A stretch of DNA of 15,974 nucleotides from Deltaproteobacteria bacterium (GTDB lineage Bacteria > Bdellovibrionota_F > JAHFAK01), in assembly GCA_023250585.1 (NCBI GenBank), contig JAHFAK010000047.1, positions 1 through 15,974 of the forward strand, written 5' to 3'. The notes below the pieces were generated by a model, which saw only the letters and a list, made by a program, of their open reading frames with translations, searched no databases and was not told the DNA's origin. Below are positions 2 to 14,068 of this stretch, in pieces. Position 1 is the first letter of the stretch, and the number at the start of each line of letters is the position of its first letter. Both the position numbers and the translations under genes were made by a program.

Positions 2-3000
2 ACGATAGGCAATGATATATTTGTAGGTAAATATGCCTACATGAGCCCCGAGCAATTGCTGAGAAAAGAACTGACACCAAAATCTGACATATTTTCAGCA
101 GGCATTGTTCTCTATGAACTTATCTTTAAAAAACTTCCTCCGGGACGAATGGGAAATAGAAGTGTCTTAAATTTGGATAACGACAAATCCAGCGTAGATC
201 CCAAGCTTGATAAAAGTTTAATGAACACTCTTCCTCATGAACTAAAAAACATTATAGAGAAGGCAACTCAAACTAATCCAGAGGATCGCTATAAAAATGC
301 ATTAGATTTTCATGATGATTTAATGAGTTTTATTTTTGCCCATAATAAACGTGTTAATTCATTTTCCGCCGCTCATTATATTAAAATGGTATTTGCAGGC
401 GACCTGTATGAGCAGGAGGCAGAAGAAAAAGAATCAGAATCAACAACCTTTAGAGAAACAGTAACGTCATTTATTGAACAAAAGAAAGTAGCAGTTCTTA
501 CTATTAACATGAAACCAATAATGAGAGATACGGATAAGAATGAAACAGTGCTTGGTATGTTTCAAGAAGTGTTGCGAATTGTGCAAAAACACGGAGGAAT
601 TATTTATCGATTACGTGATACTGAACTCATTACGGTCTTTGGTCTTCCTAAAAATACAGAAGATGATGTGTATCGAGCTTTGCTTACAACGTTAGACGTG
701 AAAAACTATGTAAGCGGACTCAAACTCAATTTTAAAGTCGCCCTGACTCAGGCTTTAGACTTTGGTACGGTTATCGTAAACTTTAAAGACGAGGACTTAA
801 ATAATTTTACTATATCTGAAGGTCCTGAGAAGCACGTAAAAGACCTCATTGCTGTTGCATCTACCGGCGACATCTTATGTGGAAATTCAATTGAACATAT
901 GGTAAAAGATGAATTCCGATTTAGTCGAGTTAAACGAAACGATCAGTGGTGCTCAACTTTAATTGATAAAACAGAAAACTCACCTTCGTTGAAGAGTTCA
1001 CATGATTGCCACGAGCAATTTATTAATAGAAAAAAAGAATTGGATGTTGTTACCCATGCATTGCATGAAGTAACTATCGACAAGGGAAAAACGATAACGT
1101 TGACCGGAGAAGCAGGCATTGGAAAAACAGCGCTGATTTATGAAATATGCAGATACGCTGAGCAAGCAAATATTCAAGTCTTTGTAGGAAGATTTCATCC
1201 TTATATAAAAACGCCCTATTCATTCTTTAAACAATTAATTTTAGAACTTTTAAATAACAACAGGAGCAGCAAAGAAATATCTTCAGCCGAGATAAGTGAT
1301 CTCCAGGGTTTCGGGCTAACTCCCATGGAACTCGAATCAATTAAAAGCATTCTTTCCATGAGATATAAAAGTGAGACCTTTGATGCCCTTCCAGGAGAGA
1401 AAAGAAAACTCATCATCTTTATTGCTCTTAAAAAGATCATGCTGGGATGTGCAAATCAGAAGACAATCGTTGTTATTGAAGATATTCATTTAGCTGATGA
1501 ATTATCCCTTGAAGCAGTAGATTCAATCCTTGCCAATGGACCGCTTTCTGATATCCTTTTGATCAAGACTCACCGAACGGAATTCTCGTATCCCTGGAAA
1601 AACCTCGATCTTTCAGAAATAACAATGGAGCTTGAGCCACTTGATGTAAGAACCTTAGGAAATTATTTAGAAACAATAACATTGTGTCCACTAGAAGAAA
1701 ATTCCCTGGCACAAATCTATAGTAAATCATCAGGTAATCCATTATTTGCAGCAGAACTTACCAAAAGCTTACTTGATAATAAAACATTGGAAAAAATTAA
1801 TAACAAGTATGTTTTAGGAAAAGACAAAGATGGTTTTATCGTTCCCGATACCATTTATACTTTACTCGCTTCACGTATCGATGGCCTTCCCAAGCAATTG
1901 AAAGAAATCTTGAGGATTGTATCGATTATCGGGAATGAATTTATCGTTGATACACTTGGTGCTCTTTCGAATAAAGATTCTAATAGTTTACATCATACCC
2001 TCGCCCAATTGCAATCAGAAGGAATGATACGGAAAACAGAGAATGGCTTTACTATAACTCATGCGCTCATGAGAGATGTTGTGTACAAAAACATTCCCAC
2101 TGATACAAGGAAGCAGTTACACAAAAAGACAGCTGATTATCTTCTTGAAAAGTACACTCATGAATTGGAAGAGCATACGAATGAGCTTACGTATCATTAC
2201 AGTAATTCCAACGATGCCCAGAAGGCTTTCTATTATTTAGTTAAGGCTGGAGATGAAGCACACAAGATTTATCTCCTGAACGAAGCACATCGATACTATA
2301 GTGAAGCCATTGTTTGTTTTACCAACAACCTGACGCTCTTTGGAGATAGCTATATTGTGCTTATTGAACTTCATTATAAAGTAGGAATTATCAATCAAAT
2401 TTTGGGAAAACTTCAAGACGCACTTATAATGCTTAACAAAGCAATTAAACTATCAAAAGAACATCAGATTTTTGAGTTTGTTCCTAAGATCTATCATACG
2501 GTAGCTCATGTCTTTAATCTTAAAGGAGATTACAAGAAAGCGCTTTTTTTTATACAAAAGGCAACAACTATTTCAGCCAAAACCGGTAATCGGATAGATA
2601 CGCTTGAATTCTTACGTGAAGAAGCAGATATCTATCGAACAATCCATAATAATACAAAAGCTCAAGAAATATTAGAAAGAGGTTTACAAGAAGTAAGACA
2701 TTTAGGTGATAACTACTTGGAAAGTCGGTACTTAAATAATTTAGGCATTATCTACGGTGATATCAATTATAAAAAGGCATTACTCTATTTTAAAGAGTCA
2801 CTCGTATTCCCTCAGGAAATGAACGATAAACTCGCGCTTTCCGTTGTATTCTCAAATATCTCAGCGCTTTTCTATAAACTTAAAAAATTAGATAAAGCAA
2901 TTAAATATGCAAAAAGAAGCTTGCGGATTTCTTCCGAGATAGAAGATAAACTGGGCGTTTGTCTTAATCTCAATAATTTAGGAGAAATGTATTTAGCACT

Positions 3001-3349
3001 TGATGATCTTGATACAGCACTTCCTTATTTTAAAGAAGGGTTAGTACACTCACGTGAAATGTCCTGGAAGGAAGGAATGGTATCAAATAGCATTCATATG
3101 AGCCTTATCTATGTAATTAAAAACCATGATATATCTCTAACTAAAAAGATATTAGATGAGTCACTCAAAGGAGCTAAAGAATTACACCATCCTGAGCTTA
3201 TTGCAAAAGCCTATCTGATCCAGTCAAAAATCCTTGCTCTTGAAAACAAAGCAGAAGAATCACAGGTAGTTTTCAAAGATGCTCAAAGCTTAATTAAGCA
3301 GAATAATCTCTCACAGGCTGTGCAGGATTTTGAGAGAAAAATTCATTAA
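2..3349 (+). CDS. Ser/Thr protein kinase / cyclase-like / AAA ATPase / TPR protein, 5' end missing
   Basis: The frame is open to the window edge; the first Met (41) is internal, because the 13 codons before it encode the end of a kinase activation segment running into the YMSPEQ form of the APE motif. Residues here count from that Met. Residues 14-28 hold kinase subdomain IX (KSDIFSAGIVLYEL) and NPEDRY (79-84) subdomain XI. About 146-300 resembles a class III nucleotide cyclase domain, including the NTEDDVYRAL region, but the first metal-binding Asp is absent (VAVLTINM), so it is probably inactive. Next comes an ATPase module with Walker A GEAGIGKT (356-363) and Walker B TIVVIEDIH (475-483), then a helical region and TPR-like repeats (about 770-1090). 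The order matches the PknK-like or kinase/cyclase-fusion family of large cytoplasmic signalling proteins, in which the TPRs usually bind partners. Kinase N-lobe and catalytic loop are outside the window, so activity cannot be judged. Confidence 0.9.
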   Translation, partial: TIGNDIFVGKYAYMSPEQLLRKELTPKSDIFSAGIVLYELIFKKLPPGRMGNRSVLNLDNDKSSVDPKLDKSLMNTLPHELKNIIEKATQTNPEDRYKNALDFHDDLMSFIFAHNKRVNSFSAAHYIKMVFAGDLYEQEAEEKESESTTFRETVTSFIEQKKVAVLTINMKPIMRDTDKNETVLGMFQEVLRIVQKHGGIIYRLRDTELITVFGLPKNTEDDVYRALLTTLDVKNYVSGLKLNFKVALTQALDFGTVIVNFKDEDLNNFTISEGPEKHVKDLIAVASTGDILCGNSIEHMVKDEFRFSRVKRNDQWCSTLIDKTENSPSLKSSHDCHEQFINRKKELDVVTHALHEVTIDKGKTITLTGEAGIGKTALIYEICRYAEQANIQVFVGRFHPYIKTPYSFFKQLILELLNNNRSSKEISSAEISDLQGFGLTPMELESIKSILSMRYKSETFDALPGEKRKLIIFIALKKIMLGCANQKTIVVIEDIHLADELSLEAVDSILANGPLSDILLIKTHRTEFSYPWKNLDLSEITMELEPLDVRTLGNYLETITLCPLEENSLAQIYSKSSGNPLFAAELTKSLLDNKTLEKINNKYVLGKDKDGFIVPDTIYTLLASRIDGLPKQLKEILRIVSIIGNEFIVDTLGALSNKDSNSLHHTLAQLQSEGMIRKTENGFTITHALMRDVVYKNIPTDTRKQLHKKTADYLLEKYTHELEEHTNELTYHYSNSNDAQKAFYYLVKAGDEAHKIYLLNEAHRYYSEAIVCFTNNLTLFGDSYIVLIELHYKVGIINQILGKLQDALIMLNKAIKLSKEHQIFEFVPKIYHTVAHVFNLKGDYKKALFFIQKATTISAKTGNRIDTLEFLREEADIYRTIHNNTKAQEILERGLQEVRHLGDNYLESRYLNNLGIIYGDINYKKALLYFKESLVFPQEMNDKLALSVVFSNISALFYKLKKLDKAIKYAKRSLRISSEIEDKLGVCLNLNNLGEMYLALDDLDTALPYFKEGLVHSREMSWKEGMVSNSIHMSLIYVIKNHDISLTKKILDESLKGAKELHHPELIAKAYLIQSKILALENKAEESQVVFKDAQSLIKQNNLSQAVQDFERKIH

Positions 3350-3406: not shown

Positions 3407-3429
3407 GTCTTTGATAAAAACAAATTGTG

Positions 3430-3436
3430 GGAGGTG
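3430..3436 (+). promoter_or_regulatory. Ribosome binding site that sets the start at 3441
   Basis: GGAGGTG lies 4 nt before the ATG at 3441. It favours this start over the in-frame ATG at 3411, which would add ten residues ahead of the signal peptide and has no comparable site. Confidence 0.75.
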
Positions 3437-3440
3437 CACC

Positions 3441-4136
3441 ATGAGACGAGTATACGCTCTATTTTTAGTTCTTAGTATGTCTTTATTTATCATCTCTGCC
3501 AAAAAATTCTCCCGTGAGCCTAATGGAGATTTAGATGCATATAATGGGGAAGATGATCCCTTCCAAGATACCTATATTGAGTATATCAGCGTGGATACTC
3601 ATAAGCCTATTCCTACAGGCAATTTAGGGCGTCCTGATGTGTATTTAATTACCACAAATATAAAAACAAAAGAAAAGACTATCAAAAATACAACTCCTCT
3701 TGTTCCGTATGGTCAATTTAATGGAGAAGGTGGTTTCCCAATACCAAGTGGCTATGCTGTTGTTAATAAGGAATATTTCCTCAACTACATTGTTCCATCG
3801 AGTGACAAAGAGCGATTAAGCCAGTGGTTTGCAGCTTCTCCATATCCAACAAAACCTACTGGAGATTTTTTTGCTGAACCAGTCGTAATTTATTCTCCTG
3901 ATGCTATTTTAGGAGAAGATCCCTACGATGCACAGTATCATTTTGAAATAGTGAGCCTGGCATTTTATTTGCCTTTTACCGATGAATATGGTGATGGAAC
4001 GCGTCTCATTATGAAAGCAGATGACCTTCCCGTATATGACTATGATGTTATTCTTCAAGGAGATGCGGATAAACTAACCGATATCAGCTTTAAAAATACT
4101 GTCGTAGTCACTAAGACTATTCTTAATGTGAGATAA
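3441..4136 (+). CDS. Exported protein of unknown function (231 aa)
   Basis: I do not recognise this protein. The chosen ATG follows a strong GGAGGTG site and puts a typical signal peptide at the very N-terminus: MRR, then a hydrophobic run YALFLVLSMSLFIISA, with likely cleavage after ISA. The mature part is about 210 residues, rich in Asp, Tyr and Pro, without cysteines or further membrane segments, so it is probably soluble in the periplasm or outside the cell. The beta-prone C-terminal half ends in alternating hydrophobic residues (VVVTKTILNV). It lies 91 bp after the kinase/TPR gene and converges with the thrombospondin-repeat gene, sharing 14 bp at the 3' ends, so no terminator fits between them. 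A partner or wall-associated role is possible, but nothing in the sequence shows one. Confidence 0.8.
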   Translation: MRRVYALFLVLSMSLFIISAKKFSREPNGDLDAYNGEDDPFQDTYIEYISVDTHKPIPTGNLGRPDVYLITTNIKTKEKTIKNTTPLVPYGQFNGEGGFPIPSGYAVVNKEYFLNYIVPSSDKERLSQWFAASPYPTKPTGDFFAEPVVIYSPDAILGEDPYDAQYHFEIVSLAFYLPFTDEYGDGTRLIMKADDLPVYDYDVILQGDADKLTDISFKNTVVVTKTILNVR

Positions 4137-5970
4137 TCTGAAATGGCCAACATTTCTTATACGGAATAATAAACGTTCTATCGAATATATCGGGTCTCCG
4201 ATTGGTGTTTCGATCATAATTAGTCCCAAATTCAGAATTGATTAAATTATCTAAATAAGAAATGTCGTTGACATTAAAATATTCTAAGTCGTTTTTCGTT
4301 AGGAAATCTATTATTTTATAGCTTTCTGTAAGCCTCAAGAATGAGAAATAATTATTACTATCTCGAGCTTCTTTAACCAACACAGTGCCTATGAGAAAAA
4401 CAATACCTGCAAAATGACCTTTTCCTCTGAGTACTGCAGCAGTGCTTACTACTCTATTTGATGGATTAATTATATCTGGATGTATTCCGCAATGACATGA
4501 GGTTTCACCATTGTATCCTTCAGTACAATCCGCAGGTGTGTATTGTACTGCTCCCGGCATTCCATCATTCTGGAGCTGTATATACGCACACGCATATTCG
4601 AATTGGTCACGGAGTCGTTCGCGATTACGTCGATTACCTACGGTGAAAGAAATAGGCTTACTATTATTATCAAATAACCGATCTTCTAAACGATCATCTA
4701 TCTCGTCTTTTTTATCCTGCATGCAGGTAAGCATAGCTCGGAGCATCTCCTCATATGTTTGCTTAGGCGGTGCCATACCGTAATTTGTGTCTTGTACACC
4801 ATAATAGAGATCAACTAAGACTTCATCACCCAGATCATTAAAAGTATAGAGTTGATTAAATATAGAGCTGGTAACTTTTAATACTACAGCACCCAGGTTA
4901 GTCATACTCCCTCGACTGATAATTTCAGGAACTAAACTTCCTCGTGATATGATACTCCCTCGTGATATAATCTCACCGTTGATGATTATTGATTCAATGT
5001 ATTCTCCTGCAAGGGTATTTCCGGATAAAAGAGGGACATCTATATTTTTAGTATCTACATTATCAATGAGTTGTCCACAATAGCGAAATTCATTATTCTC
5101 TTTTGTATACATTTTATAGCATTCATATGTTTCTTCATCATCAGCACATTCGTAGAGCAAGAAGAGATCTGTGGTCGTACTTTCAACTTCTTCGTTCTTA
5201 TCAGTATTGCCATCATCTTCCCGCTTTCGATCATCATAATCATCACAGACATCACCCTTTTTATCAGCGTCAATGTCAGCCTGATCTGGATTAGTATGAT
5301 AGGGACAATTATCTTCATTATTATTCTTTGTATCACCATCAAGATTGTCATCGCACACATCACCTATGCCATCGCCATCTTGATCCTTTTGATCGGTATT
5401 TTGAATATCTGAGCAATTATCTAAATCATTAGCAATTCCATCTTCATCTTTATCGACATCAGGATTGCAGGTATTTTCATCATTATAAGGGCATTTATCT
5501 TCAGAATCAGGAATACCATCATCGTCCTTATCAGTATCACAGGCATCGCCTTCGGAATCTCCATCTGCATCAGCTTGATCTTTATTTACTGTAGCAGGGC
5601 AATTATCTACGGTATCAAGGATACTATCATTGTCTGAATCCTGACATGCATCTCCAATGCCATTAGGAGGATCATCACTATCATGCTGATCTGGATTTGA
5701 AACTGCAGGACAATTATCATCTGCATCGATAATGCCATCAGCATCGGTGTCTGTTTCTGGATCAGCATAGATTACTTGAGTTGGATCATCTCCCTGAGAA
5801 ATATCACTTTCCGTCGATGCTTTCTCATCATCATCATCTCCTCCACCACACCAGGGAATACCTAATGATAAGATGAGCAATATGATCCCGATTACAATAA
5901 CAATAATTGCTGGGTAGAGACATGATTCTTGTTGATGTTGTTTCTTGTGCCACTGAAAATACTGTAACAT
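4123..5970 (-). CDS. Membrane-anchored thrombospondin type 3 repeat protein (615 aa)
   Basis: A hydrophobic segment at about 20-39 (AIIVIVIGIILLILSLGIPW) follows a short charged N-terminus; the next Cys lacks a proper lipobox, so a membrane anchor with the rest outside the cytoplasm is likeliest. Residues about 73-245 are thrombospondin type 3 repeats: repeated DxDxDGIxDxxDNCP units separated by DQxDxDGDGIGDxCD units, with regularly spaced Cys. In this family the Asp side chains bind Ca2+ and the Cys pair up, giving a rigid calcium-dependent stalk. The C-terminal 350 residues are unfamiliar; they contain three copies of IISRGS (334-355), a Cys-rich stretch near 461-494 and a hydrophobic patch near 517-532. 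There is no Shine-Dalgarno sequence before the ATG, and a palindrome abuts it. A cell-surface adhesion or structural role is inferred. Start confidence is moderate. Confidence 0.85.
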   Translation of the reverse strand: MLQYFQWHKKQHQQESCLYPAIIVIVIGIILLILSLGIPWCGGGDDDDEKASTESDISQGDDPTQVIYADPETDTDADGIIDADDNCPAVSNPDQHDSDDPPNGIGDACQDSDNDSILDTVDNCPATVNKDQADADGDSEGDACDTDKDDDGIPDSEDKCPYNDENTCNPDVDKDEDGIANDLDNCSDIQNTDQKDQDGDGIGDVCDDNLDGDTKNNNEDNCPYHTNPDQADIDADKKGDVCDDYDDRKREDDGNTDKNEEVESTTTDLFLLYECADDEETYECYKMYTKENNEFRYCGQLIDNVDTKNIDVPLLSGNTLAGEYIESIIINGEIISRGSIISRGSLVPEIISRGSMTNLGAVVLKVTSSIFNQLYTFNDLGDEVLVDLYYGVQDTNYGMAPPKQTYEEMLRAMLTCMQDKKDEIDDRLEDRLFDNNSKPISFTVGNRRNRERLRDQFEYACAYIQLQNDGMPGAVQYTPADCTEGYNGETSCHCGIHPDIINPSNRVVSTAAVLRGKGHFAGIVFLIGTVLVKEARDSNNYFSFLRLTESYKIIDFLTKNDLEYFNVNDISYLDNLINSEFGTNYDRNTNRRPDIFDRTFIIPYKKCWPFQIISH

Positions 5971-6112: not shown

Positions 6113-7984
6113 TTACACTGATTCATGAATGGAATCTTCTCGTCTTTCTGATTCTTCTTCGAACAGAGAATGCGGAAGTATCTCAATTGGTACACTGCCT
6201 GCTAATCCCTTGGGTAATAAGCTTACACCAAGGAGTTCGCAACGAGTTCTGATTCTTTCCTCTTCAAAGTGACTCGTAACAAGAATCGAATGTTTTCCAA
6301 TATTCAATCGTTCAATGAGATCAAGGCCTGTTTCTTGCTCTCCCAGTAATTCATAATCACTGAGAAGATAGTATGACTCCCACTTCTGATTCTCTAACAA
6401 AAAAGACAGAGCTTTTGCCGACGTAAAATGCATATGCATGACATTGTATCGAGTAAAGTCACTCTCTCGAAACCTCCGCTTCCAAACTTCATGTATCGAT
6501 GTATCATCATCCAAAATAAGCATCATGGTATTGGGAAAAATGGTAAGTTTCGGCAAAAACCATACGGGAGCTTTAGCTCGTTTGAAGGACAATTTCAGTG
6601 TTGTTCCCTGTCCTTCTTCTGAATCAATCGTGATATCTCCTCCCCATCTCTTCATGGTTTCTTTTGCATGGAAGAGCCCTAATCCTGAGCCTCCAGCTTT
6701 TCCGAAACTAAAGTTATGATCACACACCTTGGCAATAATATTTTGTGGAATACCTCTTCCGTTGTCTTCAATGGTCAGCAGAATCTTTGTGTCTTCAGCA
6801 GATACAGTAAGAACAACTTTACCCTCTTCATGACATGCCTCAACTGCATTATTGATTATATTTGAAATCATTCGCTTAAATTCCACCGGCTCTATCTCTA
6901 CAAAGGCTCCATACGATGATTGATCGCACTGGTCTTCTATAGAAATTCCCGATCGATCTCGATATTGCGTTCGCTTTTCAGAAACTATGCTTTCAAGGAG
7001 ACTTGGAAGTAATTCAATGCTTATCTTATGTGCTCGAACGGAAATAGATTGAGCATCTTTTTTCTCTTGCTTCATGAGCGATAGATTATTCGCTATATCT
7101 TGAATTCGCTTTACTGAATTTCGGAGTAATATCCGCTCTCCTTCTGGTATTGCTTCAATATGCCTCACCAATATATTCAAAGCTGCTAAGGGCGATCGTA
7201 TGTCGTGTGCTACCTGGGCAGAGATCTGCTCTATAGCAACGTATTTTTCAGTTTTGAGTTGTATTTCGTATTCTCTCAAAAGTGCTTTTTTAAGATCTTT
7301 AGACACCATATGAATAGTTTCTGCAACTTGGTTGAGTTCAGTAGACCCTAATGATGTTGGAATATTAACAGAATCAGTCATACCACGTAGATATTCACGA
7401 ATGTTTGGAATTGCACCTGTCAGTTCCATAATGGGTTTTACAACTGATTTTGAAAGAAGAGTACGACTCGTCATAAAAAGAAAAAGGAGTGAAAATAACA
7501 AAATACATAAGGCAAATAGAAGTGAACTCTTAAGAAAAGATGCCATAGAGAGATCAACCGGCTGAGCAAAGAAAATTGTTCCCAGACCTTCTCTCAAAAT
7601 ACTAATTTGTCTTGACACCACAACGAAACCATTTTCTAAGAAATCAGACTTAGATTGTTCAAAGTGTGAACGAAATATTTCTTTAGCCTTGTTACTCTCA
7701 TAGATCGCAGAGCCGTCTTTACGATAAAGCCCTATTTCTAAATCCTTATTTTCTTTCACTATCGATTGGCCCCGCATTAGAGCTGCATAGAACTTATCAT
7801 TAACAAACTCTTGGACAAGCAACGGAAGCTGTCCATCTATTAAACCATTGAGTCTTTGTTTTGCAGAGGCAATAACCTGATGTTTGTGTGCATTGCTTAA
7901 AATGAAGTAAAATCCAAAAGTTATGATGATAGAGGTCGAGATCGCAACTATAAAAATTCGGTTAAGTTGACTAGCGAGTCGCAT
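6113..7984 (-). CDS. Hybrid sensor histidine kinase with C-terminal receiver domain (623 aa)
   Basis: Two membrane segments (about 9-30 and 150-172) enclose a roughly 120-residue extracytoplasmic sensor region. A HAMP-like linker follows, then the kinase core: H box VAHDIRSPLAALN with phosphorylatable His260, N box NIINNAVEA, G1 box DNGRG (407-411) and G2 box GGSGLGL (431-437). After a linker, residues about 487-605 form a receiver domain with the acidic pocket DDD (492-494), likely phosphorylated Asp543, Thr570/Ser571 and Lys592. There is no Hpt domain, so this receiver may regulate the kinase rather than pass phosphate on. The ATG overlaps the 3' end of the permease/binding-protein gene by 14 bp and follows GGAAAGG, indicating translational coupling. 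The sigma-54 activator encoded nearby at 10229-11590 is the obvious partner. Its overall family is clear; the ligand is unknown. Confidence 0.92.
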   Translation of the reverse strand: MRLASQLNRIFIVAISTSIIITFGFYFILSNAHKHQVIASAKQRLNGLIDGQLPLLVQEFVNDKFYAALMRGQSIVKENKDLEIGLYRKDGSAIYESNKAKEIFRSHFEQSKSDFLENGFVVVSRQISILREGLGTIFFAQPVDLSMASFLKSSLLFALCILLFSLLFLFMTSRTLLSKSVVKPIMELTGAIPNIREYLRGMTDSVNIPTSLGSTELNQVAETIHMVSKDLKKALLREYEIQLKTEKYVAIEQISAQVAHDIRSPLAALNILVRHIEAIPEGERILLRNSVKRIQDIANNLSLMKQEKKDAQSISVRAHKISIELLPSLLESIVSEKRTQYRDRSGISIEDQCDQSSYGAFVEIEPVEFKRMISNIINNAVEACHEEGKVVLTVSAEDTKILLTIEDNGRGIPQNIIAKVCDHNFSFGKAGGSGLGLFHAKETMKRWGGDITIDSEEGQGTTLKLSFKRAKAPVWFLPKLTIFPNTMMLILDDDTSIHEVWKRRFRESDFTRYNVMHMHFTSAKALSFLLENQKWESYYLLSDYELLGEQETGLDLIERLNIGKHSILVTSHFEEERIRTRCELLGVSLLPKGLAGSVPIEILPHSLFEEESERREDSIHESV

Positions 7985-10016
7985 AGCCTTTCCAACTGGT
8001 GATAGTTGTAGGTGATACCAACGAATCCAATCGTAAACCTTTTGTCATTAGTTCAAGAAGCACCATATTTCTTGAAGTAGAACCATCGTTTTCAAACGTA
8101 ACTTTACCTGTTGTATCTATATATGAACTTCCTCTGAGTTTTTTTGAAAGTAATAGATTATCGACCGTTTGATATTTTTCGATAAGACTTCGTAAATGTA
8201 TAAGAAACGCATAGGGAAGAATATCGGGACCATCAGAAATATACGAAGGTAATTTCCCCGTTAGTTTTTCAAATCGTTTGGTTAGTACTGATTTTTTTTG
8301 AGTTACCATTTTGGGATGCCAACGGTGAATATAATAATAGTTATTTCCTTGTGGCTTTTTTCCTTCCAAAAAGAAAATATCAGGTCTACCATCAGTTGGG
8401 CCCCATCCATCAGCTCCAAGATAAGTGAGTTGCCCAAATCCCTGTTCGTTAAGAGCACGAAGTATCTCTGCAACTCTCGGTTTAAGATCTGGAATAAATA
8501 CAAGGTCTGGTTCAAAAGATCTCATTGAATTAAAGAGTTGTCCAAAATCAATCCGGTCTGAAAGATAATCATATTGTTGAATTTCTATAATTTTGGTTTT
8601 TATCTTTAAGATTTTAAGAAAAGTAGTTGAAAGTCCATCGCTATAAGGATCAGAACGATTAGTAAGAACAAGAACTTTTCTCGGCTTAAATCGTGATGTA
8701 ACAATGTTTACTAGCATTGCAGCTTGAAAATCATCATTCCAAGAAAGTTGAAAAACAGTGCCTTTTAATTTAGAAATTTCAACGTTTGTAGCATTAGGAG
8801 TAACAAATAGTTTTCCAGACTCTTGATACATTCTTCCTATTGGCAGCGCAACACTACTAAAAGAATGTCCTATAGTAAGGAGATGGTTTCGGTCGGCGAG
8901 TGCTACTTGGGCATTTTTTGCAGCCACAACTACCTGGGCTTTGTCATCTTGAGAAATAACTTCAATGTTTCTACCGAGAAGCCCTCCATGCTCATTTGTC
9001 TCTTTGGCGAAGGCAATCACTGCTAAACTTATTCCTTTTGCAAGAAATGGCATGATCCCCGTATAAGATCCTGGAACATAAATGTGAAGAGGTTCTTTGT
9101 TTGCAGCTTGCACTTGTGATATGAAGAAAAAAACTATAAGGAAAGCTAACCTTTTTTTAAAAATCATCGAGAAACGTTTTTCAATGAGAGGAAAAATAGC
9201 TGCAATACCTAGCATTACTGCGGAGATTTCTTGTTTGAGCGATAATGGCTCATTCATTACAAAAAGACTGATGAGTACAGCTGTCAATGGATCAACGTAT
9301 GATACAAATGGGCTGAGTTCATGATTGAGTCTCAGAGCTCTCCACCAGAGTAGAAATGGGGTAAGTGTAAATAAGACTCCTAGTACAATAATTCCTGTCA
9401 GTTCGCTAATATTAATCAAAGCAAATGAATTTACAGAGAAAGGAATAAGACAAAAAGCTGCAAATAACGATTGAATAAAAAGGGACAAACTCGGAGATAG
9501 AACCTTTGTACCCTGTTCAATTATTGGAATTAACCCAAATAGTATTCCTCCAAGTAGTGCTAACAGATATCCCAATTGATTTGACGACGCTGCCGTAGGT
9601 TGAGTAAGAAGTAAAAGAATAGCTACAATAGATATAAGTGAACTGATGGCATTCGCTCTATGAATTTGAGTTCGAAATACAAATCTTCTTATAATGATAG
9701 TAAATATAGGCCCAGAGTAAAAGATCGCGACACACATACTTACCGGTGCAAGTTTAAAAGAAGAGAATAAACACACCATGTTTAAAAAAATCGCAGCTGA
9801 AGTGGCAATGCTTGAAAGAAGAGACATAGGTGTAAGATTTTTGAATGATTGTTTATTTATAACTAGAAAACTGAACGTTGTGATGGCCGTGATTGCCATC
9901 CTATAAAAGACAAGATCTACAGAAGTTAATATAGATGGTTTAACAACGAGAGATGTACTCCCAAAAAGAATAAAAGCAATAAAAGCGATAAGATAAGCTT
10001 TTCCTTTGCTATTCAC
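7971..10016 (-). CDS. EamA/DMT-family permease fused to a LivK-type periplasmic binding protein (681 aa)
   Basis: Residues 1-279 are two EamA repeats with about ten membrane segments, the drug/metabolite transporter fold that often exports amino acids or other metabolites. Residues 284-304 (MIFKKRL, a hydrophobic run, then QVQA) look exactly like a signal peptide, and 306-681 form a type I periplasmic binding protein of the branched-chain amino acid/amide family (LAVIAFAKETNEHGGLLGRNIEV, IGHSFSSVALPIG). With an even number of permease helices, the extra segment places the binding domain outside the inner membrane. The GTG start is chosen because AGGAG lies 8 nt upstream, EamA homology begins there, and the upstream in-frame ATG (10082) lies inside the sigma-54 promoter. 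The reading frame is continuous, with no sign of a frameshift. It is co-transcribed and overlapped with the sensor kinase, so the binding domain is probably a ligand sensor. The substrate is unknown. Confidence 0.88.
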   Translation of the reverse strand: MNSKGKAYLIAFIAFILFGSTSLVVKPSILTSVDLVFYRMAITAITTFSFLVINKQSFKNLTPMSLLSSIATSAAIFLNMVCLFSSFKLAPVSMCVAIFYSGPIFTIIIRRFVFRTQIHRANAISSLISIVAILLLLTQPTAASSNQLGYLLALLGGILFGLIPIIEQGTKVLSPSLSLFIQSLFAAFCLIPFSVNSFALINISELTGIIVLGVLFTLTPFLLWWRALRLNHELSPFVSYVDPLTAVLISLFVMNEPLSLKQEISAVMLGIAAIFPLIEKRFSMIFKKRLAFLIVFFFISQVQAANKEPLHIYVPGSYTGIMPFLAKGISLAVIAFAKETNEHGGLLGRNIEVISQDDKAQVVVAAKNAQVALADRNHLLTIGHSFSSVALPIGRMYQESGKLFVTPNATNVEISKLKGTVFQLSWNDDFQAAMLVNIVTSRFKPRKVLVLTNRSDPYSDGLSTTFLKILKIKTKIIEIQQYDYLSDRIDFGQLFNSMRSFEPDLVFIPDLKPRVAEILRALNEQGFGQLTYLGADGWGPTDGRPDIFFLEGKKPQGNNYYYIHRWHPKMVTQKKSVLTKRFEKLTGKLPSYISDGPDILPYAFLIHLRSLIEKYQTVDNLLLSKKLRGSSYIDTTGKVTFENDGSTSRNMVLLELMTKGLRLDSLVSPTTITSWKGYATR

Positions 10017-10077: not shown

Positions 10078-10093
10078 AGCAAACTTCATGCCA
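10078..10093 (-). promoter_or_regulatory. Sigma-54 (-24/-12) promoter of the permease-binding protein/kinase operon
   Basis: On the minus strand the sequence is TGGCATGAAGTTTGCT. Every defined position fits the sigma-54 consensus TGGCAYRNNNNTTGCW, with the GG and GC at the required spacing. Transcription would start near 10067, leaving a leader of about 51 nt before the GTG at 10016. The gene immediately upstream encodes a sigma-54 activator, which makes the assignment much stronger. Confidence 0.85.
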
Positions 10094-10122
10094 ATTTTTG
10101 ATAACATATCTAAAGCTCTTCC

Positions 10123-10198
10123 ATTCATGTATTCCAATGCTTACAGAATGTATTCATGTTCATCAGCAATATCTACCATTCATTCTATAATTTCATGT
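10123..10198 (-). promoter_or_regulatory. Candidate enhancer (activator-binding) region upstream of the sigma-54 promoter
   Basis: On the minus strand ACATGAA occurs three times (10198-10192, 10159-10153, 10130-10124). A dyad TACA-TTC-TGTA lies at 10152-10142 within AATACATTCTGTAA (10154-10141). ATGTATTC (plus strand) is repeated at 10127 and 10148, 21 bp or two helical turns apart. The block lies roughly 55-130 bp upstream of the predicted transcription start, within or near the range used by NtrC-type activators. The region is AT-rich, so chance repeats are possible. Confidence 0.35.
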
Positions 10199-10228
10199 AA
10201 GTAATTCTTATTTCATTTTCAAAATGAC

Positions 10229-11590
10229 TCATTTTAATCCATAGTCTTTTATTTTTCTGGTGAGTGTTGGAGCTGATGTTTTAAGCAGCTCTGCGCAGGA
10301 ACTTTGAGTTTTTGTCTCGTGTAATGCACACTCAATAATTTCCTTCTCTATGTTCTCTAATACTGACTTAAGACCCATGGTTTTTGCCTTTGTTAAAAGC
10401 TCTTGAGCAAGATTTCCAGTTTTGGAATGGGGAAAAGTTTCTGTATACAATTGAGAAGGAATATCCCGTGGGGTAATCAGTCCATCTCGTTTCATCGCAA
10501 TCACCAGCTTGATACAATTCTCTAATTCTCGTACATTTCCCGGCCACGAGTAGGCTCGTAAAACCTTTCGCACTTCTTCGGTTAGGAGTACACGAGTATT
10601 CTGTATAAAATGATCCAGTAAAAGATCAATATCGCCTCGTCGCTCTCGTAACGGAGGAATGAGTACGCTCATTCCCTTCAGACGATGGTAGAGATCAAGT
10701 CGAAAGCGCTTCGCTCTCACAAGCTCTTCTAAATTTTCATTCGTTGCTGAAATGATCCTACAATTCACCTGGCGGATATGATGCGATCCTATCCGTTCTA
10801 CCTCACCTCCCTGAAGTACCCTCAGTAATTTCTTCTGCGTATCGAGGCTCAACGTCCCCACTTCATCAAGAAACACATCTCCTTCATGCGCTAACTCAAA
10901 TTTTCCTATGCGATCTTCAGTGGCTCCCGTAAACGAACCCTTCTTGTGTCCAAACAGTACCGATTCCATAAGAGCATCAGGAATTGCTGCACAATTGACT
11001 ACTATAAATGGCCGATGTGGATTTCCAAGGTCATGAATGTAGCGGGCAATTAATTCTTTTCCTACACCGCTTTCTCCTTCGATAAGAATAGTAATATGTG
11101 TATTGTCTCTCAGATAATATAGGTTGCCTAAAATAGTCAGTAATCGAGGATCTTCAGTAATAAATGAATTTCCAAGAATAGAGACTCGATCTCCCGAGCT
11201 TTCTTTCTCTGAAGTACTATGTTCGGCAATGATTTTAATTCGTTGAATAATATCCTGATCTGGATGAGCCTTTGATACAAAATCAACAGCGCCTCGTGAG
11301 AGTGCATGCTGAATGGTTTCAGCATCATCACGGCCACTGAGCATAACTACATGAGCGTGGGACTGAGCATGCCTGATGCGGGAGAGCAGTTCAAAGCCTG
11401 CATTCGTATCTTTCCCTAATCCTATATCGAGGAGGATAATATGATAGTCTTTTTCGGTAATATATTTTTGCGCTTCGATAGTTGTATAGGCTTGATCTAC
11501 GAAAAAATCCTGCGATAGGTAGCGAGCATACACAGTATTTAAGGAAACATCATCGTCAACAATAAGAAGAGATAATCGTTCTCCCTCCAT
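10229..11590 (-). CDS. NtrC-type sigma-54-dependent response regulator (453 aa)
   Basis: Three domains are complete. The receiver (about 6-120) has the acidic pocket VDDD, likely phosphorylated Asp55, Ser85 and Lys107. The AAA+ domain (about 140-375) has Walker A GESGVGKE (172-179), the sigma-54 contact loop as GSFTGA (218-223) instead of the usual GAFTGA, Walker B DVFLDE (238-243), arginine-finger region RFRLDLYHRL and the NVRELEN sensor II motif. A Fis-type helix-turn-helix closes the protein (about 412-453). It would bind enhancer DNA and hydrolyse ATP to open sigma-54 promoters once phosphorylated. The ATG at 11590 is chosen because AGGAGG lies 9 nt upstream and the receiver homology starts at once; a longer reading to 11653 would add 21 unlikely residues. 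Two sigma-54 promoters lie nearby, at 10078 and 12186. The partner kinase is probably the one at 6113-7984. Confidence 0.94.
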   Translation of the reverse strand: MEGERLSLLIVDDDVSLNTVYARYLSQDFFVDQAYTTIEAQKYITEKDYHIILLDIGLGKDTNAGFELLSRIRHAQSHAHVVMLSGRDDAETIQHALSRGAVDFVSKAHPDQDIIQRIKIIAEHSTSEKESSGDRVSILGNSFITEDPRLLTILGNLYYLRDNTHITILIEGESGVGKELIARYIHDLGNPHRPFIVVNCAAIPDALMESVLFGHKKGSFTGATEDRIGKFELAHEGDVFLDEVGTLSLDTQKKLLRVLQGGEVERIGSHHIRQVNCRIISATNENLEELVRAKRFRLDLYHRLKGMSVLIPPLRERRGDIDLLLDHFIQNTRVLLTEEVRKVLRAYSWPGNVRELENCIKLVIAMKRDGLITPRDIPSQLYTETFPHSKTGNLAQELLTKAKTMGLKSVLENIEKEIIECALHETKTQSSCAELLKTSAPTLTRKIKDYGLK

Positions 11591-11599
11591 AACCTTATT

Positions 11600-11605
11600 C
11601 CTCCT
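11600..11605 (-). promoter_or_regulatory. Ribosome binding site that sets the start at 11590
   Basis: A full AGGAGG on the minus strand lies 9 nt before the ATG at 11590. It favours this start of the sigma-54 activator over in-frame ATG codons further upstream. Confidence 0.75.
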
Positions 11606-11624
11606 GTATCCCCAGATGATAGAT

Positions 11625-11653
11625 CTCATAGCCATTCTGTCATCATTTGGCAA
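11625..11653 (-). promoter_or_regulatory. Possible sigma-70-type promoter for the sigma-54 activator gene
   Basis: On the minus strand TTGCCA (11653-11648, five of six) is separated by 17 bp from TATGAG (11630-11625, four of six). The predicted transcript begins near 11618, giving a short leader that contains the AGGAGG site. It suggests the activator is made constitutively while its targets use sigma-54. Confidence 0.4.
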
Positions 11654-11750
11654 GAAAATTTTTATACTACTATTTTTCTTGACGGAAATTTAGGTTTGGG
11701 GTTTTTAAAAAGCACTTAAGTCGGTAGTGTCTATTTGCTGTTGTATTCTC

Positions 11751-11903
11751 TATCCGCCTTCGCAGAGTACCACGACATATACCGTGGGTGAATGAGCGGG
11801 AGCTTCGGGCGGATATCGCCTCAGGACTTGCAGGCGGATACCCTCCGTAGCCTTGGCGAAGGAGGGTAATAAATGGTACCACGGCTTTAGCCGTGGGGCT
11901 CCA
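11751..11903 (+). mobile_element. GC-rich hairpin island resembling the right end of an IS200/IS605-family element (remnant)
   Basis: About 150 bp stand out as GC-rich and highly structured within AT-rich DNA. Inverted repeats include TATCCGCC (11751-11758) with GGCGGATA at 11808-11815 and again at 11833-11840; CCACG (11770-11774) with CGTGG (11783-11787); CGCCT with AGGCG (11817-11836); CCCTCC (11841-11846) with GGAGGG (11861-11866); and a terminal hairpin at 11879-11896. The terminal CCACGGC-TTTA-GCCGTGG hairpin is the type found at IS200/IS605 ends. One plus-strand frame reads STTTYTVGE, a stop, then CRRIPSVALAKEGN to a stop at 11904, which resembles a decayed TnpB C-terminus. In TnpB elements this region also specifies the guide (omega) RNA scaffold. 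No transposase gene is present. The alternative is an unrelated structured RNA or a dispersed repeat. Confidence 0.42.
11879..11896. repeat. Perfect 7-bp hairpin CCACGGC-TTTA-GCCGTGG
   Basis: Arms of seven GC-rich pairs enclose a four-base loop, followed by GG. It has no U tract on either side, which argues against an intrinsic terminator. It is the last element of the structured island and its likeliest role is a transposase-recognised end hairpin. Confidence 0.7.
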
Positions 11904-12145
11904 TAATAATAAATCTGTGATATATTGTTTTTATTATAAAATAGTCGAATTGTACATAGGCTACTCGAAATTATTCCATCGATTATTTACGGGAAGAACG
12001 AAAGAGAAAAATTCTTGTAAAAAAACAGTAATGACCAAACGCTTTATTTTGTAATGTTTTTAATACATTTTGTTACTTTTCTTTACAGCTTTCAAAAAAT
12101 ATAAAAAAAGCTATTTCTGACGTGTTCCCTAAGATTCCTCTAGTA
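11904..12145. other. AT-rich intergenic DNA with no gene
   Basis: No convincing reading frame lies here. I see an AGCTTT/AAAGCT inverted repeat (12088-12112, 13-nt loop) and the dyad at 12054-12069 described separately. The whole gap between the activator start (11590) and the next gene (12267) holds the activator promoter, the hairpin island, this AT-rich stretch and the sigma-54 promoter. Confidence 0.6.
12054..12075 (+). promoter_or_regulatory. Candidate enhancer element of the secreted-protein operon
   Basis: The inverted repeat AATGT/ACATT overlaps AATACATTTTGTTA (12062-12075). This matches AATACATTCTGTAA on the minus strand at 10154-10141, upstream of the other sigma-54 promoter, at 12 of 14 positions and in the same orientation toward its promoter. 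It lies about 140-160 bp before the predicted start. Both regions are AT-rich, so this is tentative. Confidence 0.3.
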
Positions 12146-12158
12146 TATCAAATGGTTA
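12146..12158 (+). promoter_or_regulatory. Consensus IHF-binding site between enhancer and sigma-54 promoter
   Basis: TATCAAATGGTTA fits the IHF consensus WATCAANNNNTTR at every defined position. It lies about -66 to -54 relative to the predicted transcription start, the usual place for IHF to bend DNA so that an NtrC-type activator reaches the sigma-54 polymerase. The match is exact, but such sites also occur by chance in AT-rich DNA. Confidence 0.5.
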
Positions 12159-12185
12159 ACAACAGAAAATTGTTCCTAAAATTTT

Positions 12186-12201
12186 TGGCATATTAATTGC
12201 A
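12186..12201 (+). promoter_or_regulatory. Sigma-54 (-24/-12) promoter of the secreted-protein operon
   Basis: TGGCATATTAATTGCA fits TGGCAYRNNNNTTGCW at every defined position. Transcription would start near 12212, leaving about 55 nt of leader before the ATG at 12267. It is intergenic, faces the operon and has a consensus IHF site upstream. The nearest activator gene is encoded about 600 bp away on the other strand. Confidence 0.87.
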
Positions 12202-12266: not shown

Positions 12267-12737
12267 ATGAAAAAATATAATTTTACATTTTTAGTTTTTT
12301 TTATTGTTATTGGTGCATTGCTCTCAGAGGTGTATGCTCAGGAATGTAATTATGGGATGGAGATATCCAGCGAAGATATTAATGAATCCTGTAATAGAAT
12401 ACAAAAAGCAGCAATTGATACTTTTAATCGGTCATCAGAAACCCCTCGGTTTGATAGTTTATCGTACTTAGGAGTAAAGACTTACGATCAAGGCTGTAAA
12501 TGGGTTCTCACTTTTCAACTGCAATTCTGCATTCGAATCAAAGATAAAGGAAAAGAATCTGCTCAGTGTGTAGAGGAAAGAAATTCGGTTTACACAATTA
12601 CGATCAACCTCCATGCAGATGGTAGCGCTGGGTGGCATGTTGATTCAACGAAGGGAGAAGATCTTATCACCTTTTTTAACGAACTGATCGGGATATATTT
12701 TTCTGAATGTACTGTATGTAAAACGGAGAAAAAATAA
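12267..12737 (+). CDS. Exported Cys-rich protein of unknown function (156 aa), first gene of the sigma-54 operon
   Basis: I do not recognise it. An N-terminal signal peptide is clear: MKK, then FTFLVFFIVIGALLS, with likely cleavage after VYA. The mature protein of about 132 residues has seven Cys (27, 42, 77, 88, 101, 148, 151), the last two as CTVC near the C-terminus. It is probably disulphide-bonded and acts in the periplasm or outside. The middle alternates hydrophobic and polar residues (KWVLTFQLQFCIRI, SVYTITINLHADGSAGWHVDST), suggesting a beta sheet. A GGAAG site precedes the ATG. Its stop codon shares one base with the next start (TAATG), so translation is coupled. As the first gene behind the sigma-54 promoter it is likely induced together with the rest. 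An odd number of Cys leaves one free for a partner. Confidence 0.8.
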   Translation: MKKYNFTFLVFFIVIGALLSEVYAQECNYGMEISSEDINESCNRIQKAAIDTFNRSSETPRFDSLSYLGVKTYDQGCKWVLTFQLQFCIRIKDKGKESAQCVEERNSVYTITINLHADGSAGWHVDSTKGEDLITFFNELIGIYFSECTVCKTEKK

Positions 12738-14068
12738 TGAAAAAAACTACGTTTTTACTTTTGACTATATTTCTTTTTTCTTTTTCTTCTTCAGTTCTCA
12801 GCGAAGTAAAGGTGATAGAAGTTTTTAGTGGGCAAGAAAAGTTATTAGACTTAAATATTGATGCTAATTTAATTCGGTTAAAGCCAGGTAATTTACGATC
12901 GACTAACCATGATATTACATTGATTGATCCATTATTATTTGAAGGTTCAAAGTTAGTCCTTTTCTATACGATGTATAATTTGACTGACTACTATGATATT
13001 GAAGTTGGAGGTAATACTTCTTTTCCATCAGAGATTGAGACTATTGAGGACAATGGAGCAAAAGTTTATAAACGAACAATTACGCTTCCTCCTCATATTG
13101 AAAACTTTTCAATAACCATAAAACCAAAGAAACGCGAATTCTATCCATGGATATCTATTAATTCAGGTAGCGTACTTTATGCTATACGACTGTATATATC
13201 TGATGGCCCATTAGTAGATCGTTTTTATCGAGAAGTAGTTCCTTATGCGCGAGGACTTTATGAAGATATTTTTCTCGATGTGATTGCTGTAGAAAATATA
13301 AAAGAGATTGAAGAATTATTTTCTGATCTAGCAAAATATAGTAGCCAAACAAATTATACATTAGAAAGAGAAAAGATTGAGGCTGTCATTACTCGAATGA
13401 AAGAAGAAATTAATCTAAATAGCCAGTTCTCATCAATTTTCTCTCCATGGGTTCAATTATTAGAAAAAATACTGATTTCGTCTAAAAACAGTTCAATTAA
13501 TATTTCCAAACTCAAGGAAAACATGGCTGAAATAGAATCAAATCTTCTTCAAACAAAGAATGATATCTCTCAATTAAAGACTCAGATAGAGGCGAGGTTA
13601 GCAGAAAAAACAGATAAAGGGATCATTCTCTCAAAAGACCTCTATAAAATATATAATGCTCTCACTTTTTTTGACACCTCTAAAGAGATAATAAAATTCT
13701 CTCACACAAAAGCTATGTATGAAGAAACTATGAATGGAGTGAAAAAACAATTACAAACACTTAATCTTACGCCCGATGAAATAGCATCAAAAGATATTAC
13801 CACTATTTTAAAAGATAAGCAGCTAACCCTGACTGCTCGTAAATATTTCACTGCCATTAAAACACTTGCACACATGAATATCCCAAAAATCTACGTTCTC
13901 CCCGCTGGGGTATTATTCGAAAATGTAAACGACAATGCTGAAGCACAACAAGCCAAGATGACTAATTACTTTAAACTAAAAGGGTTAGATCCTGAGCTTG
14001 TAATTGTTTATCAAAGTTATTTTTTTAAATACATTGAATCTGTTGGAAAAACAAAACATCTCGATTAA
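12737..14068 (+). CDS. Exported protein with beta-rich N-terminus and coiled coil (443 aa)
   Basis: This family is unknown to me. Residues 1-22 form a signal peptide (MKKTTFLLLTIFLFSFSSSVLS, cleavage before EV). Residues about 24-155 look beta-rich, with repeated short hydrophobic strands and several Asn and Tyr. About 157-250 is helical. About 253-292 (ISKLKENMAEIESNL onward to QIEARLAEK) has coiled-coil character. The remainder is helical and ends at HLD. No cysteine is present, in contrast to the first gene. The ATG overlaps the previous stop by one base and the next gene starts two bases after its stop, so the genes form one transcript. The order of a beta domain followed by a long coiled coil suits an extended, self-associating or scaffold-type envelope protein; that function is inference only. 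Confidence 0.82.
   Translation: MKKTTFLLLTIFLFSFSSSVLSEVKVIEVFSGQEKLLDLNIDANLIRLKPGNLRSTNHDITLIDPLLFEGSKLVLFYTMYNLTDYYDIEVGGNTSFPSEIETIEDNGAKVYKRTITLPPHIENFSITIKPKKREFYPWISINSGSVLYAIRLYISDGPLVDRFYREVVPYARGLYEDIFLDVIAVENIKEIEELFSDLAKYSSQTNYTLEREKIEAVITRMKEEINLNSQFSSIFSPWVQLLEKILISSKNSSINISKLKENMAEIESNLLQTKNDISQLKTQIEARLAEKTDKGIILSKDLYKIYNALTFFDTSKEIIKFSHTKAMYEETMNGVKKQLQTLNLTPDEIASKDITTILKDKQLTLTARKYFTAIKTLAHMNIPKIYVLPAGVLFENVNDNAEAQQAKMTNYFKLKGLDPELVIVYQSYFFKYIESVGKTKHLD

Follow-up and report, generated by a model that had tools for sequence, protein, structure and literature searches.

Does a sigma-54 activator gene that lies between two sigma-54 promoters control both of them, and with them its own sensor and a set of exported proteins? 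This question is raised by the window analyzed here, a stretch of 15,974 bases that forms the entire contig C102 of genome G000 (2.24 Mb, 164 contigs), which an earlier note, made from the letters, had described as a dedicated local switch. According to our analysis, the explanation that we consider reasonably probable is a sensor switch with positive feedback whose output is a set of exported proteins, and it is suggested by the placement of the two promoters, an enhancer-like dyad common to both, and the recurrence of the same arrangement at paralogous loci. The comparison set comprised 290 genomes (this genome and 289 others), two of which represent the phylum, and conservation was tested on paralogous loci within the same genome, as close relatives are absent from this set. 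A single copy of rpoN is present in the genome, on contig C92 (211 bits).

Two sigma-54 promoters around an activator gene

The two promoters (Table 1), TGGCATGAAGTTTGCT facing the sensor operon and TGGCATATTAATTGCA facing the exported-protein operon, match TGGCAYRNNNNTTGCW without any mismatch, exactly at the positions given by the earlier note, and no other perfect match occurs in the window. Both are intergenic, are oriented toward a gene, and carry a GG-N10-GC core with conserved flanks. When up to two mismatches are allowed, the window holds 11 matches versus 6.0 expected, and only these two sites score more than 9 bits with a weight matrix derived from genomic sites. Genome-wide, 57 perfect matches were found versus one for the reversed-pattern control, and the unfixed positions of the pattern are also biased, with A at offset 8 in 36 of 56 sites and T directly after the site in 39 of 56. 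This bias at free positions, together with the enrichment over the control, indicates that the sites are promoters in a genome with heavy sigma-54 use, and the motif is, judged from sequence, functional in this genome. The motif is not enriched in the second genome of the phylum, G001 (6 matches versus 5 in the control).

Two sites in 15,974 bases correspond to p ~2.5e-5 at the control rate and p ~0.06 at the real rate of the genome. Because of the 57 genomic sites, such a pair in 16 kb is only mildly unusual, and it is the placement of the two sites around an activator gene, rather than their number, that is noteworthy. The description of the locus as a compact local regulon, which the earlier note had proposed, finds no support as worded, as at least 57 such promoters exist in the genome and other activators may act here, or this one elsewhere. 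As for the downstream genes, the sensor promoter lies 61 nt before the GTG start codon at 10016, which has AGGAGA 8 nt ahead of it, and the plus-strand promoter lies 65 nt before the ATG at 12267, which is preceded by GGAAG. The distance of about 50 nt given in the earlier note fits when counted from the expected transcription start. TTG 10082, the mechanical open reading frame (ORF) start of the first sensor gene, was rejected as a start because it falls within the promoter.

The gene between the sites encodes, as had been noted, an NtrC-type activator, in which a receiver (Response_reg), an AAA+ domain (Sigma54_activat), and a Fis-type helix-turn-helix (HTH) domain (HTH_8) all score over cut-off, together with the motifs GESGVGK, FLDE, and GSFTGA, the last a variant of the GAFTGA loop. 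Its start is likely ATG 11590, with AGGAGG 9 nt ahead, which was preferred to TTG 11653, and its end lies 135 bp from the sensor promoter.

An enhancer-like dyad upstream of both promoters

Upstream of both promoters there is a dyad with the core TGTA-N10-TACA (10128-10145, minus; 12050-12067, plus). The one at the sensor promoter forms the core of a 29-bp block, ATACAttcTGtAAgc.TTG.aAtACATGA (also rendered ATACAttcTGtAA...TTG..AtACATGA), which emerged from aligning the activator-sensor promoter regions of the window and of contigs C5 and C153, and the gap between this block and the -24 box is exactly 33 bp in all three. The promoter itself recurs as well, since C5 carries TGGTATGAAGTTTGCT between activator and sensor operon, one base from that of the window with the spacer included, and C153 carries a further counterpart; at both loci the dyad is present as a variant. 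The expectation of the earlier note that the -24/-12 sites would be conserved at related loci is therefore borne out, on paralogs, for the sensor side.

The extended form TGYAA-N8-AYACAT occurs 16 times in the genome (6 in the control), and five of these occurrences lie upstream of sigma-54 sites, all oriented with the promoter, namely at the three sensor promoters, at the plus-strand promoter of the window, and at the second promoter of C153. The core TGTA-N10-TACA is found at 46 genomic places versus 40 in the control, which is chance level, yet the 200-bp stretches upstream of perfect sigma-54 sites hold seven of the 46, versus ~0.2 expected. Counted from the promoters, 58 sigma-54 sites have 8 hits in the 200 bp ahead of them versus 0.4-0.6 expected, one dyad on C54 being counted twice for two divergent promoters, and other arm spacings (4-9 and 11-16) give 0-2 hits at the same sites. 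Moreover, the plus-strand dyad is the best match to the sensor-promoter block in its 532-bp region (joint p ~0.002 against order-2 Markov sequences), and a matrix from the three sensor promoters scores this region at 8.6 bits (95% point of shuffles, 7.2), a value that is weak alone. The dyads are presented here as predicted enhancer sites, which the window regulator may bind.

Sensor operon and exported-protein operon

As the earlier note had it, one promoter faces a sensor operon and the other faces four consecutive genes for proteins with signal peptides. The first sensor gene encodes an in-frame fusion of a transporter and a binding protein, with NCBIfam matches to 2A78/YddG and to branched-chain amino acid substrate-binding protein and with recognizable hydrophobic segments. 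At the joint, a signal-peptide-like helix (KKRLAFLIVFFFISQVQA-ANKEP) follows the EamA domain with no stop codon, and no Shine-Dalgarno sequence was seen ahead of the internal ATG; read as a single protein, the fusion would place the binding domain outside. No protein aligning over both halves was found in the 289 other genomes, where matches cover essentially one half, and we found no description in the literature of a kinase operon that contains an EamA-binding protein fusion. As for the kinase, the NCBIfam models TorS (57 bits, below cut-off) and NahK/ErcS hybrid kinase align beyond the ATPase domain, and the C-terminal receiver-like segment was not detected by Pfam. Used as a query for related loci, it returned only matches of 23-24%. 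The binding-protein gene adjoins the kinase gene with no ATP-binding cassette (ABC) permease recognized, and likewise on C5, C64, C91, C14, and C153.

The four exported-protein genes are joined by overlaps or 2-nt gaps, and none of their products belongs to a Pfam or NCBIfam family. The only match of exported protein 2 in the 290 genomes is itself, so that no relative was found in G001 either. Genome-wide, the first genes after sigma-54 sites are rich in signal peptides or lipoboxes (29/44 versus 78/275 control genes, p ~3e-6), as called by a crude predictor with control genes from the same loci as the 57 sites. This enrichment fits the published view of sigma-54 as a controller of the bacterial exterior (PMC3162934).

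Table 1. Features of the window.
Feature	Position	Strand	Basis and remarks
Membrane histidine kinase	6113..7984	minus	Pfam HATPase_c; overlaps fusion gene by 14 nt
In-frame fusion of EamA-type transporter and type I periplasmic binding protein (Peripla_BP_6)	7971..10016	minus	Pfam; start GTG 10016
Sigma-54 promoter (-24/-12), sensor operon	10078..10093	minus	exact match; 27.4 bits on genome-derived matrix
Enhancer-like dyad TGTAA-N8-ATACAT, sensor promoter	10127..10145	minus	33 bp upstream of -24 box
NtrC-type sigma-54 activator (enhancer-binding protein)	10229..11590	minus	Pfam/NCBIfam, motifs, paralogs
Enhancer-like dyad TGTAA-N8-ATACAT, exported-operon promoter	12050..12068	plus	117 bp upstream of -24 box
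Sigma-54 promoter, exported-protein operon	12186..12201	plus	exact match; 21.9 bits on genome-derived matrix
Exported protein 1, 156 amino acids	12267..12737	plus	ORF; signal peptide (heuristic call)
Exported protein 2, 443 amino acids, orphan	12737..14068	plus	ORF; signal peptide by eye, coiled coil
Exported protein 3, 385 amino acids	14071..15228	plus	ORF; signal peptide by eye, coiled coil
Exported protein 4, cut by contig end	15212..15974	plus	ORF; signal peptide by eye

Paralogous cassettes in the same genome

The genome encodes 11 strong sigma-54 activator domains, and for at least six of the 11 activator genes, perfect sites lie no more than ~1 kb away and the layouts are similar. Beyond the window, such cassettes were identified on C5, C153, C75, C64, C91, C14, and, less completely, C54 (seven or eight in all). 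They combine sigma-54 sites with genes for an activator, a kinase, and a binding protein, the last from different families (Peripla_BP_6, ABC_sub_bind, SBP_bac_5, or SBP_bac_1), and with further enzymes and transporters that differ between cassettes (radical SAM/SPASM, methyltransferase, beta-eliminating lyase, SDR, MFS, and MATE-like). No binding protein was recognized in the C75 cassette, and neither a kinase nor a first activator was found in the part of C54 that was read. The window, C5, and C153 have a common core, in which the activators are 55-65% identical and the kinase cores 45-54% (window kinase, 54% to that of C153 and 45% to that of C5), and the binding proteins differ.

Five contigs (C14, C54, C64, C75, and C91) have a second sigma-54 site followed by a gene with an ideal Shine-Dalgarno sequence; the first 36 codons of this gene, MKRAFIT.HGPLVRRLSELRKLKGSTITIHIYGESG, can be aligned with the beginning of the activator AAA+ domain, with no receiver ahead. 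All five contigs end within this near-identical gene, and near-identical HTH ends open C63, C91, C148, and C23. The middle of the gene was probably collapsed by the assembler, and we infer that the start pieces and the HTH ends belong to one receiver-less activator gene. The output of the second promoter is this activator in five cassettes, and instead four orphan exported proteins in the window. The coding part is almost identical across the five cassettes even where the 5' leader differs, and this near-identity suggests recent copying or gene conversion. In addition, the C75 activator (L113, 236-1549) has a GAYTDA loop in place of GAFTGA, and may make poor or different contact with sigma-54.

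Proposed mechanism and alternative explanations

The DNA itself contains the genes, the domains, the promoters, the dyads with their statistical link to sigma-54 promoters, and the promoter/dyad spacing at paralogs, and the following switch may be built upon them. The periplasmic binding domain, anchored in the membrane through its EamA fusion, would bind a ligand outside and signal to the histidine kinase of the adjacent gene, which would phosphorylate the NtrC-type regulator, a pairing that we infer. The regulator would then bind the TGTA-N10-TACA dyads upstream of the two putatively active sigma-54 promoters. Activation of the sensor promoter would raise the sensor operon and thus amplify the system itself, while activation of the plus-strand promoter would turn on the four exported proteins, presumably as the output.

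Several points weigh against this switch. The TGTA-N10-TACA dyad also lies upstream of promoters on C54, C80, C91, and C118, where the local activators differ or none is known, and it may be read by several activators. For the same reason, the word "dedicated" in the earlier note is unproven; the remainder of its inference appears mostly right, and the layout and the shared dyad agree with the self-boosting arrangement that it proposed. The two window promoters are linked through the TGTA-N10-TACA geometry, which was defined after both window regions had been inspected, and this weakens the plus-strand case. In addition, the distance from dyad to promoter is 117 bp on the plus strand versus 33 bp at the sensor promoter. 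For the plus-strand promoter, no homologous locus was found for a conservation check. Furthermore, neither raw 24-mer similarity between promoter regions nor a generic dyad-pair search picks out the two window promoters as a pair, or within-cassette promoter pairs in general, and a private enhancer in every cassette is therefore not claimed. However, the second promoter of C153 and the spacing-specific enrichment were found after the motif had been defined and provide independent support for the dyad.

The dyads at promoters with no window-type regulator nearby also speak for a two-tier control, in which the local regulator drives the sensor promoter and another sigma-54 activator drives the exported operon, for example the receiver-less one with TGTA-N10-TACA as its common site. 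The start of that activator (MKRAFITEHG..GESG) after a sigma-54 site in five cassettes, along with the matching HTH ends on four contigs, makes it an available candidate, but it is precisely at the three loci whose regulators are of the window type that the dyad is best conserved and its spacing fixed, and activators usually regulate neighboring operons (PMC6615313; PMC4641369), so we hold this control to be rather unlikely. We give even less credit to the view that the flanking of the activator is largely a coincidence and that each promoter is under general control, within a wide use of sigma-54 for envelope and exported proteins. The 57 genomic sites, the p of ~0.06 for two per 16 kb, and the enrichment of exported products with its published counterpart are compatible with this improbable case, while the similar layouts around at least six of the 11 activator genes, the dyad common to both window promoters, and its conserved spacing at paralogs argue against it.

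The resemblance of the binding domain to branched-chain amino acid binding proteins, and the amino acid transport known for EamA members, would suit a catabolic module instead, in which binding protein and transporter serve nutrient uptake and a DctBD-like switch induces this uptake together with unrelated envelope proteins. However, neither in the window nor in the paralogous cassettes was an ABC permease or ATPase gene recognized next to the binding protein, the binding proteins vary while the kinase/regulator core stays, and one EamA match is an exporter (YddG), which leaves this module doubtful. More speculatively, and as a long shot, the cassettes might be self-inducing signaling circuits, in which each sigma-54-driven operon makes and exports its own signal and reads it back through an orphan binding protein and a kinase. 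The signal would then reach outputs that can be exchanged, in most cases the receiver-less activator that the cassettes share, and in the window exporter and receptor would be one fused protein. Candidates for making the signal would be the radical SAM, methyltransferase, pyridoxal phosphate lyase, and ATP-grasp-like enzymes, and candidates for exporting it the MFS, MATE-like, or EamA proteins.

Neighboring genes and other sigma-54-linked loci

The beginning of the window encodes a Ser/Thr kinase-AAA-TPR protein (2-3349) and a convergent pair (3411-4136 and 4123-5970), consisting of a membrane protein with thrombospondin type 3 repeats and a small partner. Paralogs of these proteins occur on C91, C75, C5, and C160, next to other cassettes or to sigma-54 sites, and one N-terminus among them, MLQYFQWHKKQHQQESCLYPAII, is identical on C91. 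Between the activator gene and the plus-strand promoter, at 11730-11910, there is a GC-rich, hairpin-forming repeat resembling repetitive extragenic palindromes (ccacggctttagccgtgg; fold z-score -2.5), with several further copies 91-93% identical over most of it and pieces at many more places. An Rfam search of the window returned nothing.

Two further loci encode peptides. On C113 (L126), downstream of a sigma-54 site (58480-58465, minus), three tandem variable peptides of ~94 amino acids ending in NTGC-type Cys repeats are followed by a radical SAM/SPASM protein near the maturases of ribosomally synthesized and post-translationally modified peptides (TIGR04463, 195 bits, below cut-off), and this is likely a sigma-54-controlled peptide-modification cluster. 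On C80 (L115), a sigma-54 site (18577-18562, minus) with a TGTA-N10-TACA dyad lies directly before the gene of a 57-amino-acid peptide (MEQLIKELLESINKQGDG..CAQDGGSPP..), which belongs to no family.

Comparison with known systems

In function, the nearest known counterpart is ZraPSR (ZraP with ZraSR, the latter also HydHG) of Escherichia coli and Salmonella, for which autoregulation is documented (PMC4987338, PMC12316311) and in which the regulator drives the sigma-54 promoters of zraSR and of periplasmic ZraP (PMC4987338). In Zra, as predicted for the window, an NtrC-type regulator acts on two sigma-54 promoters, one of its own sensor system and one of an exported protein. However, Zra has divergent promoters in one intergenic region and its kinase and regulator in one operon, whereas in the window the promoters flank the regulator gene, the kinase belongs to a separate downstream operon that begins with the EamA-binding protein fusion, and the output is four unrelated exported proteins. 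The window thus appears to work like Zra without being a member of it. The enhancer sites of GlrR (QseF), TGTC-N10-GACA, for which the GlmY small RNA is the listed target (PMC4987338), have the same 4+10+4 dyad geometry. Their arms differ from TGTA/TACA in the window, and the regulators are not close (GlrR model, 213 bits versus a cut-off of 763).

LuxP-LuxQ-LuxO and TorT-TorS couple a kinase to a periplasmic binding protein, and one of their components, LuxO, is itself a sigma-54 activator. Similar to these systems, the window has a binding-protein gene beside a kinase gene, and the LuxO (249 bits, activator) and TorS models match below their curated cut-offs. In contrast to them, its binding domain forms part of a transporter fusion, and a separate phosphotransfer protein was not seen.

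In Desulfovibrio and Clostridiales, activator genes are co-localized with their own sigma-54 promoters (in the operon, divergent, or with the promoter downstream) and a cognate upstream site (PMC4641369, PMC6615313). The coupling of an activator both to its sensor and to an exported output is already known, and the local switch is of an ordinary kind. The difference from those regulons lies in several paralogous cassettes with swapped sensors in one genome, five of them with a second activator as output. What is new is one genome that repeats this wiring, in which the kinase-regulator core stays the same, receptors, enzymes, and outputs are swapped, and an enhancer motif is predicted. The interest lies in the recurrence of the cassettes, in the shared geometry of the enhancer sites, and in the fusion of exporter and receptor. 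The predicted dyads can be tested directly for binding, and the fusion protein is a clear candidate for a sensor of the very compound that it transports.

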